Assembly (NCBI RefSeq): GCF_000188155.2
Contig: NZ_KE124774.1
Span: forward strand, 1,184,356-1,248,355
Length of the DNA stretch: 64,000 bases
Reading direction: 5' to 3'
Origin: Methylocystis sp. ATCC 49242
GTDB taxonomy: Bacteria; Pseudomonadota; Alphaproteobacteria; Rhizobiales; Beijerinckiaceae
Position numbers and translations under genes: made by a program
Part shown: in pieces, positions 41,113 to 43,667 of the stretch
Numbering within the stretch: position 1 is the stretch's first letter
Layout: every line of letters starts with the position of its first letter
Notes under the pieces: model-generated
Seen by the model: the letters and a program-made list of their open reading frames with translations, nothing else
The model's database searches: none
What the model was told of the DNA's origin: nothing

Positions 41113-41778
41113 TCACCGCTGCATCTGCACATGGTCGAAATCTGAGCTTCGCTCTTCCTGAATCGCGAGCGCGAGAATGAGGCTGAAGACGGCCGCGGCC
41201 AGGCACCAGAGCGAATACCAGGCAGGCCGGTTTTCGACGAGCGCAAAGACGAACGTGCCGAACACCGCCAGTCCGAACAGCGCAACGCCGCGCCGCTCGC
41301 AGCAGACGAGCGGAACCACCGTCAGGACGACGTATAGAAAATCCGCGATCAGCGGCGGCCTTTCGAAAAGCGGGTCGTAGGCGAGCGAATGCCTGACGAC
41401 CGTCAGGTCGATGCCGTCGGAGCCGGCAAGCTTCAGGATCAGATAGACCGCAAGGATCACGCCCGTCCCGCCCATCAGCCGCCAGAGGCGCTGGCGCTCG
41501 GGGTCGGCCTCGGCATAGGCCGCCGCGAAGGGCGTGAGCACGGGCCACACCGTGAAAGCGATGAGCGTGTAGACGTAACGAAACGGCTGGCCGCGCTCCG
41601 GATCATGGAGCGTGAGCCAGACTGCGCCCTCCGTGAACTGGTGCACACTGAAAACCAGAGGGAACGCGGCGAAGACAAGCATGCGCCGGTCATGACGCAA
41701 CGCCTTGGAAACCATGCCGAAACCGGCCAGTCCCAGACCAAGCCCCGCGGTGACGCTTGCCTCTAGCGAGTAGCACAT
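41113..41778 (-). CDS. DUF6629-like membrane protein
   Basis: The 221-residue protein begins MCYSLEASVTAGLGLGLAG and has about seven hydrophobic segments with short loops. The pattern MCxSxxAS at the start plus RRLVFA-type spacing is typical of the DUF6629 family of membrane proteins. Function is unknown. It is convergent with the D-amino acid transaminase gene, whose stop is directly adjacent. Confidence 0.72.
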   Translation of the reverse strand: MCYSLEASVTAGLGLGLAGFGMVSKALRHDRRMLVFAAFPLVFSVHQFTEGAVWLTLHDPERGQPFRYVYTLIAFTVWPVLTPFAAAYAEADPERQRLWRLMGGTGVILAVYLILKLAGSDGIDLTVVRHSLAYDPLFERPPLIADFLYVVLTVVPLVCCERRGVALFGLAVFGTFVFALVENRPAWYSLWCLAAAVFSLILALAIQEERSSDFDHVQMQR

Positions 41779-41877
41779 GGCTCGACCCAACCCTGTGACC
41801 ACTGACAGTAAGGTTGAACGAACACGATTTTATCGCAGTGTTTGCATTCGTCGAGATGCGCGATACGCAAAAAAAAA

Positions 41878-41902
41878 GCCCCGCTCGACAGAGTCGAGCG
41901 GG
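41878..41902 (-). terminator. Rho-independent terminator downstream of pmoC
   Basis: A stem of 11 bp (CCCCGCTCGAC/GTCGAGCGGGG) with a 3-nt loop is flanked by an A9 run on the plus strand, which reads as a T-run after the hairpin on the minus strand. It lies about 160 bp after the pmoC stop and closes that transcript. Confidence 0.92.
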
Positions 41903-42060
41903 GAAGTTTCTGGGTGGGAGGTTCCCCCACGCGGGAGGGAGTGCAACCGCGTGAAGCTCTGTTACGCAGATCTGGCTGCGAAAAGTGGCGGCCGGCGTCG
42001 AAGCAAGGGGGAGCGACGCCGGCCAGGGAGCGCGCGCCGGGCGAATGCGCGCGCCCCAAA

Positions 42061-42834
42061 TCAGCGTCGGAGCAAAGCCTCCACTCCTTCCGCGCCAAGG
42101 AGTTCGCGGAAGCGGCCGAGGATCTGCAACACCACGCCGAATATGGCGAGCGACATCCATCCGAAGAACACGAAGCCCCAATGCAGCGGGCCGGCGAAGC
42201 CTTCATCCATCGACCAGGAGGTGTGGCCCCATTCATTGAAACCGACATTGGGGATGGTCATGAACACGCCGACGACGAGCACCAGGAAAGCAAGCGAAAA
42301 GCCCTTCGCGAAAAAGGGAAGGCGTGTCCTTGCATAGAAGAACGCGCCTATCCCGATGATCGCGAACAGCGGATATGAAATATAAAAGGTGATGATATTG
42401 CTTGGGGTGAAATCGGTGTCGCGCACGGCGGTCATGTGCCAGACCGCCGTCTGCTCGGAGAAGAAGCTCAGGCCCCAGAACAGCGCCAGAGCGAAAACAA
42501 CCAGCCATTGGACGAGAAAGAACAGCCGGCGCGTTTCGGCGGCCGGCGTCAGCAGCGTGAAGTCCCGATCCCGCGTGCGCCAGAGATAGGCGACGAGGGC
42601 GATGACGCTGAAGAAACCCAGCACGACGGCGAACTGAAGCAGATTGATCCAGAAAGTCTGGAATTCGGGCGAGAAGGAGTCGAGCCCCGCGGTCCATCCG
42701 AAGCGCTGCTCATAAGCGCGCAAAATCGCGACGAGCAGCGTCAGGGCGGCTATGCCGATCAATACAGGTCTTTTGTCGAGGATCGGTTCGACGCGTTGTA
42801 CGGCGCCGGCGCGATCTGCGTCAGTCATGCTCAT
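42061..42834 (-). CDS. pmoC: Particulate methane monooxygenase subunit C (divergent, lone pmoC)
   Basis: The 257-residue membrane protein matches PmoC: AVWHMTAVRDTDFTPSNII, RLPFFAKGFSLAFLVLVVG, then NVGFNEWGHTSWSMDE and PLHWGFVFFGWM. PmoC is one of three subunits of the copper enzyme that oxidises methane. Copper ligands of the CuD site are intact (N200, H204, H218). At the CuC site only H133 is kept; the usual Asp is T129 and the usual second His is N146. No pmoA or pmoB accompanies it. GGAG lies eight bases before ATG 42834. The leader has small hairpins, and a terminator closes the gene. Confidence 0.9.
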   Translation of the reverse strand: MSMTDADRAGAVQRVEPILDKRPVLIGIAALTLLVAILRAYEQRFGWTAGLDSFSPEFQTFWINLLQFAVVLGFFSVIALVAYLWRTRDRDFTLLTPAAETRRLFFLVQWLVVFALALFWGLSFFSEQTAVWHMTAVRDTDFTPSNIITFYISYPLFAIIGIGAFFYARTRLPFFAKGFSLAFLVLVVGVFMTIPNVGFNEWGHTSWSMDEGFAGPLHWGFVFFGWMSLAIFGVVLQILGRFRELLGAEGVEALLRR

Positions 42835-43074
42835 TATTATTGTCTCCAAAATCTGGGTGCGGTCGAAGGGCAACGTCCTTCGTGGCTCTGCGGGGGCGCG
42901 TCGAGCGCCCGGCGGCGAAGGCGTCGCCGCGTGAGAGAGGATCAAAAGCGAAAGCAGTGTCGCTTCAGCCGCGTCGCGCTAACGCGGCCCTTTCCGCAGA
43001 GATCGAACGCCTGGGGAATACATCAGGCCGGTCCGTGACGGACCAGTAGCCTCAGCGTCGATGCCGGAAAGGGA

Positions 43075-43470
43075 TCAGGCCGCGAGGGCCGGCGGCGCCC
43101 GTGGAGACTGTGGCGCTACTTTGGGCTCCACGCGCAACAGGGGCGTGGAGACGATCGGAGCGGGCGCAGCGGCCACGCCGGGGAAGTCCAGAACGAGCGC
43201 AAACACCGCCCTGACGACAGGCGCATCGAGCGCGCCGCCATGCATTATACAGCACAGGCCGTGATGCTGGGTCTTCGCGGGCGTCTGGGGCTGTCCGTCG
43301 TCGCTCGACGTCTTTTGCGTCGCGCAGGTCACGCCGAACGTCGCGCCCTGCCCTCCCTCTGTCGCCGCGACGGCGAAGCCCGCGAAGGCGATTTGCAGCA
43401 GCAGCAGGCAGGCGACGAGCGTCGCAACGCTTCGCGCAAACACTCCCTGTTCCTGCCCGAATGGACGCAC
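43075..43470 (-). CDS. DUF2946-like protein
   Basis: The 131-residue protein has a transmembrane or signal segment at residues 12-35 and a middle part with QHHGLCCIMHGG, a cysteine/histidine cluster. It ends in a Pro/Ala-rich tail with PQSPRAPP. The pattern fits DUF2946, small exported proteins often found beside copper-handling genes. It lies about 240 bp upstream of pmoC on the same strand, so a role in copper metabolism is plausible but unproven. Confidence 0.72.
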   Translation of the reverse strand: MRPFGQEQGVFARSVATLVACLLLLQIAFAGFAVAATEGGQGATFGVTCATQKTSSDDGQPQTPAKTQHHGLCCIMHGGALDAPVVRAVFALVLDFPGVAAAPAPIVSTPLLRVEPKVAPQSPRAPPALAA

Positions 43471-43667
43471 GGCCGCTATCTCCCGGTTCCAGATACAGGC
43501 TATTTGCGGCGTAGAAAGGGGTCAAGCGGCGTTGAAGCATAATTGCGCATGTGCGTCGAAACGTCGCGCGACGCTCCGTCCCGTCAAATGCGGCGATTCA
43601 GCTCCGATCGGAACATTTGCGAACACGCGGCGTTTCATTGGCAGATAGCTTGCCTTGGGAGGATACC

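Follow-up and report, generated by a model that had tools for sequence, protein, structure and literature searches.

What is a PmoC protein that has lost one of its copper sites used for, and what decides when it is made? These questions are raised by a 64,000-nucleotide stretch of DNA from Methylocystis sp. ATCC 49242 (hereafter the window), which lies on a contig of 4.3 Mb (the genome totals 4.73 Mb in 6 contigs and has an estimated completeness of 100%) and which carries a pmoC gene whose product lacks two of the three ligands of the CuC site. The copper site at which pMMO oxidises methane has long been disputed, and recent work moves between CuC and a second site, CuD (PMC12576850). The reading that we favor, and whose chances as a whole we judge to be about even, is that this gene forms a two-gene operon with a copper-sensing leader and encodes an alternative PmoC that uses CuD only.

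The gene occupies positions 42061..42834 on the minus strand, with its ATG at 42834 and its stop codon ending at 42061, and it encodes 257 residues. Pfam AmoC (PF04896) covers residues 12-247 of the product with an E-value of 8.5e-90 and a score of 300.8 bits (cut-off 26.7), in agreement with the preliminary description, which had reported a full-length PmoC without naming the strand. The protein falls below both NCBIfam equivalog cut-offs for PmoC/AmoC (279.0 vs 280.6 and 301.4 vs 319 bits), and its top match in the PDB is the PmoC of 3rfr, at 345.6 bits. The alignment with chain C of 1yew, the PmoC of M. capsulatus, runs without gaps at an offset of +27; it places T129, H133 and N146 at the CuC ligands Asp156, His160 and His173, and N200, H204 and H218 at the CuD ligands Asn227, His231 and His245 (ligand names from PMC12576850). 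In other words, the CuC pattern Asp-x3-His-x12-His fails through D129T and H146N, with H133 kept, and the CuD pattern Asn-x3-His-x13-His is intact; both sites had been read in this way before, and the alignment confirms that the residues compared are the right ones. We refer below to PmoC forms by the residues at the three CuC positions: T-H-N for the form found here, D-H-H for the normal one and G-H-N for a third one with Gly-His-Asn.

Is the altered site a feature of this one copy? The genome contains six pmoC genes, two in pmoCAB operons and four that stand alone, the T-H-N copy being one of the four. One of the other lone copies has the operon sequence and adjoins an ftsH gene, and the remaining two are 55% identical to the T-H-N query. 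All five of these other PmoCs are D-H-H, so the outcome in which every copy of the genome shares the altered pattern did not occur. The three lone copies with normal ligands (L131, L132 and L133) lie on contigs C6 and C4, one of the 55%-identity copies being near a contig end. The T-H-N gene was described as having no pmoA or pmoB in the window, and a direct search of all 64 kb, in which control stretches with pmoCAB operons matched, indeed found neither; the two pmoA and pmoB matches of the genome lie outside the window, elsewhere on contig C6. The pmoB of the second pmoCAB operon (G000:C6:2440034-2441189, L135) is in two frames, owing either to a real frameshift or to an assembly error. No pmoA- or pmoB-like gene was found across 23 T-H-N stretches searched (the window and 22 others).

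The T-H-N form is widespread within its genus. A DNA pattern for the RDTDFTPSN stretch, which captures H146N, matched 17 loci in the genome collection; 15 are in Methylocystis or relatives and are all T-H-N (one is cut before CuD), and two are verrucomicrobial and both G-H-N. Searching 39 genomes of the genus and then reading the loci gives 25 with a T-H-N PmoC, two of these having a divergent or partial copy (G135 at 59% and G148 at 69%); the other 14 genomes include incomplete ones, and not every partial PmoC match in them was read. Another genus of this family, probably Methylosinus (it includes G042 and was represented by 10 genomes), yielded 22 newly read PmoCs, all D-H-H. The full classification covers 124 distinct PmoC rows with 150 residues or more: 28 T-H-N (including L037 and L038, which are cut copies of other rows), 93 D-H-H and 3 G-H-N. 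All 27 distinct T-H-N sequences that span both sites, three of them partial, have lost the same two CuC ligands, reading Thr-His-Asn as in the window, and all 27 keep the Asn-His-His of CuD. A specialization of strains that do not have soluble methane monooxygenase does not explain this distribution, T-H-N being present in 6 of 7 sMMO-positive and 19 of 32 sMMO-negative genomes. Candidate mobile origins fared no better: the H146N match was absent from viral contigs and the phage collection had no match to T-H-N PmoC, and all ten plasmid PmoC/AmoC matches were less than 60% identical, the six that were read being D-H-H. Genome G158 (about 210 contigs) has two different T-H-N operons (L112 and L113), both with the leader described below, and may represent two strains binned together.

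The phylogeny and the pattern of substitution both speak to the history of the variant. A maximum-likelihood tree of 79 rows, for which the program warned of long branches, L146 among them, unites the 26 T-H-N rows in one clade (support 100/98) and puts two G-H-N rows in a separate clade (100/99) among verrucomicrobial D-H-H sequences. Such a tree requires two changes, i.e. CuC was lost twice, and both times the Asp was replaced, the second His became Asn, and the first His and CuD were kept. The median dN/dS within the T-H-N clade is 0.16 and the highest value 0.26 (NG86; 21 genes, 133 of 210 pairs with usable dS); T-H-N pmoC is under purifying selection. When the 27 T-H-N rows (the window counted twice, as q and L142, and partial rows included) are compared with 44 rows of close D-H-H sequences, 75 positions are fixed and identical in both groups and 17 are fixed differences, among them D129T, H146N, E149T and L212G. 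The specialised variant with one metal site, one of the options offered in the preliminary description, is therefore the best supported by the shared CuC loss, the conserved CuD triad and the low dN/dS. A second option, a subunit of a different copper oxidase, finds no backing: the 23 stretches have no pmoA- or pmoB-like gene, and the sole recurring neighbor is an ORF of the DUF2946 family. The third, a non-catalytic paralogue, may also apply.

This neighbor is an upstream ORF (uORF) at 43075..43470 on the minus strand, directly upstream of T-H-N pmoC and outside the segment described previously. It starts with GTG and encodes 131 residues, with an N-terminus that is hydrophobic and signal-like as judged by eye, a CC-x-x-H metal motif, and a C-terminal PQSPRAPP that resembles an arrest motif. 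In a comparison of 22 T-H-N loci with up to 20 kb of surrounding sequence, the uORF was the only window neighbor that recurred; it is present in 20 of the 21 other loci, the exception being a contig that starts at pmoC. Among the loci listed, about 12-13 share common genomic neighbors, annotated in one locus as polA, chorismate synthase, an AMP-binding/acyltransferase gene and a HemN-like radical SAM gene. Since these are not copper genes, a wider copper gene cluster can be set aside. The window, L105-L108 and L120 do not have this common context, yet among the same listed loci they keep the uORF-pmoC pair.

How strictly is the leader tied to the variant? A profile search of up to 700 nt upstream found the uORF before all 25 T-H-N rows that could be tested (from 24 genes), but before none of 90 testable D-H-H rows and none of 3 G-H-N rows; because the profile was built from 21 T-H-N leaders, its independent positives are only L082, L083/L037 and L146. 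Rows with a short upstream flank, namely T-H-N rows L038, L098 and L130 and three D-H-H rows, were set aside. An earlier motif search over 82 sequences gave the same split. Two of the 22 rows from the G042 genus, L174 and L178, had matched an RxPP-plus-Cys pattern, but the frames concerned are Arg-rich and the profile search lent them no support. As all T-H-N rows form one clade, the linkage reflects one origin that has been kept and not many independent gains.

The family assignment of the leader is a weak Pfam match: the uORF of the window scores 25.0 bits against DUF2946 (cut-off 23.7), two of four leaders tested, the window included, pass the cut-off, and the leader of L146 has no match at E 0.001. 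All 21 aligned leaders have CC-x-x-H, which is not a strict CXXC, and L144, a DUF2946 paralogue of the same genome, likewise has CXXH. The C-terminal motif is RAPP in 19 of the 21 and RPPP in two, with RGPP in L146. From the His of CXXH to R-x-P-P there are 46 residues in 15 leaders and 47 in six. The arrest region has a pN/pS of 0.17 and the metal motif one of 0.30, against 0.68-0.69 elsewhere; constrained motifs in an otherwise loose sequence fit a sensor and stalling peptide, not a folded protein. On contig C6 of the genome, a search with a limit of E 1 adds ten DUF2946 matches (L136-L145), six of which score above the cut-off; the same loose search also gives matches in 9 of 14 control genomes, above the cut-off in one. 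By gene order, a TonB-dependent receptor gene immediately follows three of the DUF2946 ORFs, a fourth stands two genes before one, and others stand before ExbB genes, which suggests that leader ORFs of the copper type are common in this genome.

The arrangement of the locus bears on whether pmoC has a promoter of its own. Between uORF and pmoC lies a gap of 240 nt (42835..43074); the corresponding gap is 148-240 nt in 21 loci and poorly conserved in sequence, its only strongly conserved part being the GGAGA box of the pmoC ribosome-binding site (TTTTGGAGACAATAATAATG, 42832..42851, minus strand). Upstream of the uORF and on the same strand are a candidate -35 element, TTGACC (43520..43525), which is present in 20 of 21 orthologous loci, and, 17 nt after it, a candidate -10 element, TAGCCT (43497..43502), a form found in 7 of 21 loci, a CTAAG/CTAAC-like sequence taking its place in other loci. 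A stricter promoter scan did not flag this pair. Farther upstream, still on the minus strand, is an operator-like inverted repeat, GCGACGTTTCGACGCA (43552..43567). A looser form of it, GCGNCGNTTCGNCGCA, occurs in 17 of 21 aligned T-H-N loci, in most of these some 20-25 nt before TTGACC, and among the 171 loci compared this looser form is confined to T-H-N loci; the exact sequence seen in the window has a single occurrence in the genome, and the repeat may thus be a dedicated operator. Downstream of pmoC, a strong hairpin of 11 pairs followed by nine T (41879..41903, minus strand) resembles an intrinsic terminator. A gene for a DUF6629 protein lies past this hairpin at 41113-41802 on the same strand and does not recur beside the operon. 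The Shine-Dalgarno (SD) sequence and the terminator that had been noted earlier are thus present, GGAG preceding the ATG and the hairpin following the gene, but the suggestion drawn from them, that pmoC is expressed on its own, finds no support: with shared promoter-like elements before the uORF and a linked uORF in every testable T-H-N row, T-H-N pmoC is probably the second gene of an operon.

Among the members of DUF2946 are CruR, from Bordetella pertussis (PMC9426467), and CutF, from Rhodobacter capsulatus (PMC9973294). Both act while nascent: a Cys motif lets them sense copper, their action requires a RAPP or Pro-rich motif at the C-terminus, and they control the gene that follows (PMC9426467, PMC9973294). 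They differ in direction. Copper relieves the CruR stall and switches off an operon that contains TonB receptor genes (PMC9426467), whereas in CutF copper turns the next gene on (PMC9973294). The T-H-N leader resembles both in being a short first-gene protein with a signal-like N-terminus, a C-terminal RAPP, and a metal motif 46-47 residues before it, and its long intergenic gap is as in CruR. It departs from both in having CXXH instead of CXXC and in preceding a gene for a methane monooxygenase subunit; the word "monooxygenase" is absent from the main text of PMC9426467 and PMC9973294. The motif difference counts against our reading, given that mutation of the CruR CXXC strongly impaired copper control (PMC9426467). 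The spacing speaks for it: the distance of 45 residues from CXXC to RAPP matters in CruR (PMC9426467), and the T-H-N leaders are within one or two of it when counted from the His of CXXH, though at 49-50 residues they would miss it when counted from the second Cys. By a crude heuristic, 2 of the 21 intergenic regions have a rut-like site where 7.2 would be expected, from which the Rho-dependent CruR mechanism gains no support, and the mean accessibility of the SD over 21 loci is 0.39 vs 0.38 in shuffles. SD sequestration, and with it the shielding stem-loop of the CutF type, is accordingly not supported.

Taken together, how might the operon work? The first gene would encode a CruR/CutF-type protein, short and probably exported, whose nascent chain would sense copper through CC-x-x-H and pause the ribosome at the C-terminal RAPP, and on this pause the expression of the second gene would depend. 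The latter would provide an alternative PmoC that is unable to form CuC and keeps CuD, that is most likely made when copper is scarce, and that may substitute for the normal PmoC in a complex with the PmoA and PmoB encoded by the pmoCAB operons, holding at most one copper, at CuD. The parts of this proposal deserve different degrees of confidence. Control by copper, suggested by the copper-type leader, we regard as quite likely. That the switch is on when copper is scarce, as in CruR, is suggested weakly by the long gap and by the paralogues before TonB receptor genes, and we rate it at no better than even. The role as an alternative C subunit that assembles with PmoA and PmoB is slightly less secure still; it is suggested by a conserved PmoC body from which one site only has been removed, a pattern that points to pMMO more than to an unrelated role. 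As for chemistry, none of the structures reviewed in PMC12576850 has copper at CuC and CuD at once, the metal having shifted by about 6 Å from one to the other, and a T-H-N subunit without CuC would then hold copper only at CuD. Asp156 and His173 are also described as hydrogen-bonding to water near CuD (PMC12576850), and the activity of a T-H-N enzyme may therefore be changed or lost; such an enzyme could oxidise methane, or its C subunit could serve just to keep the complex assembled.

Lone pmoC genes as such are already known, and the T-H-N form is best placed by comparison with them. It shares with the PmoC of pMMO (PF04896; 3rfr, 4phz, 1yew) its length, homology over the whole length, the CuD triad and the Arg-Asp-Thr-Asp-Phe-Thr-Pro-Ser stretch; it differs in having Thr and Asn where pMMO has the CuC Asp and second His, in standing outside a pmoA/pmoB operon, and in having a copper-type leader ORF. 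The monocistronic pmoC genes of methanotrophs, such as pmoC1Gs (by ftsH), pmoC2Gs and the plasmid-borne pmoC3Ps of strain SC2, are likewise lone and outside pmoCAB. Unlike the T-H-N gene, the ftsH-linked pmoC of the present genome is D-H-H and has no DUF2946 uORF, and two Methylocystis plasmid copies that were read are also D-H-H. The published accounts of monocistronic pmoC consulted here mention neither a loss of ligands nor a leader. SC2 has two chromosomal lone pmoC genes, of which pmoC1Gs is identical to the operon copies and adjoins ftsH, the other being pmoC2Gs (PMC3794950). Genome G144 has three pmoC matches of equal score, one of them beside ftsH, plus a T-H-N gene; if G144 is SC2, PmoC2Gs is probably the T-H-N protein. 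At 1 mM ammonium PmoC2Gs gave a signal about 1/400 as strong as that of PmoC1, rising to log2 +2.3 at 75 mM ammonium (PMC9600857). For a monocistronic pmoC of M. bryophila, which may or may not be of the T-H-N kind, expression was higher at ambient than at low oxygen (PMC12319191).

Could the variant have a role outside methane oxidation altogether? It is conceivable, though we consider it unlikely, that T-H-N PmoC is a membrane copper-handling protein (a store, chaperone or sensor) that uses CuD, is not a subunit of pMMO, and is produced with other copper genes. A lone gene without CuC that is linked to a copper-type uORF would suit such a protein, the uORF class elsewhere heads copper uptake genes (PMC9426467), and a sensing instead of a catalytic role has been suggested for lone pmoC (PMC10171618, PMC7716213). 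What makes us prefer an alternative pMMO subunit is that the 75 positions that are fixed and identical with catalytic PmoC include the stretches around both sites; a protein put to another use should not need so many. A nonfunctional duplicate in decay, which the disappearance of two of three CuC ligands might by itself suggest, is most improbable: the same two substitutions recur in all 27 sequences with CuD intact, dN/dS is low among close relatives, and promoter-like elements, ribosome-binding site and leader are shared across loci.

The remaining alternatives concern the signal. Were the uORF CutF-like, copper would delay its export and turn on T-H-N pmoC, and the variant would be made in copper excess; we give this reversal no better prospects than the copper-handling protein. 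By eye, several loci have hairpin-like sequence immediately before the SD, and at the locus of the window the accessibility of the SD is below that of shuffles (0.12 vs 0.34), but this effect vanishes over the 21 loci; most CutF-like genes have spacers below 100 nt (PMC9973294), shorter than any of the 148-240 nt gaps, and in this genome other DUF2946 ORFs precede genes for TonB receptors, the arrangement known from the CruR operon, which copper represses. Nitrosomonas is said to have a divergent lone AmoC3 that acts as a stress-response stand-in. T-H-N PmoC could similarly replace normal PmoC under stress, with copper a secondary matter, a case that we consider improbable. The rise of PmoC2Gs with ammonium, which is not known as a copper signal, favors it and tells against the copper reading; yet PmoC2Gs is no more than probably the T-H-N form, and the strict uORF linkage points to copper. 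A copper-controlled leader followed by a CuD-only PmoC thus continues to be the reading that we prefer.

To what extent is this new, and why would it matter? Searches of open-access literature found no description of a PmoC without CuC, or of its leader. The bacterial and phage PmoCs aligned in PMC7674155 keep Asp156, His160 and His173, and according to PMC12576850 CuC is conserved throughout the known methanotrophic species. A conserved, natural, CuD-only PmoC may thus serve as a test of the catalytic copper site: if it supports methane oxidation, CuC is dispensable, and if it does not, it tells us what CuC is for. The leader, should it control expression by copper, would extend nascent-peptide copper control to the machinery of methane oxidation, and it supplies a concrete, testable role for one class of lone pmoC genes.

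The second loss of CuC, in Verrucomicrobia, offers a comparison. Among 40 surveyed relatives of LP2A, PmoC turned up in 13, and the 29 rows read (some weaker matches were left unread) comprise 3 G-H-N and 26 D-H-H. Like the T-H-N gene, the three lone G-H-N genes (LP2A, STC_89 and G178) have no pmoA or pmoB nearby, neither being found in the three stretches of 19.0, 4.8 and 3.8 kb, in searches in which verrucomicrobial operon controls matched; their products, too, have lost the CuC Asp and second His and kept the first CuC His and CuD. Unlike the T-H-N form, they have Gly-His-Asn, belong to a separate clade (two of the three being in the tree), and have no DUF2946 leader. Three Methylacidiphilum strains keep DxxxH(x12)H in all their PmoCs, an orphan pmoC included (PMC6688271). 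It is tempting to go one step further and propose that Methylocystis builds a second form of pMMO with a CuD-only C subunit under copper shortage, switched by an arrest peptide, and that a verrucomicrobial lineage reached a design without CuC independently; we put this forward tentatively, as an idea with the balance of probability against it. In two of the verrucomicrobial loci (L125:9180-10019 and L128:2760-3587), a conserved, secreted-looking protein of 129 residues that belongs to no Pfam family is encoded upstream of the lone G-H-N pmoC, and a gene for an APH-family kinase follows pmoC in L125, with a similar ORF in L128.
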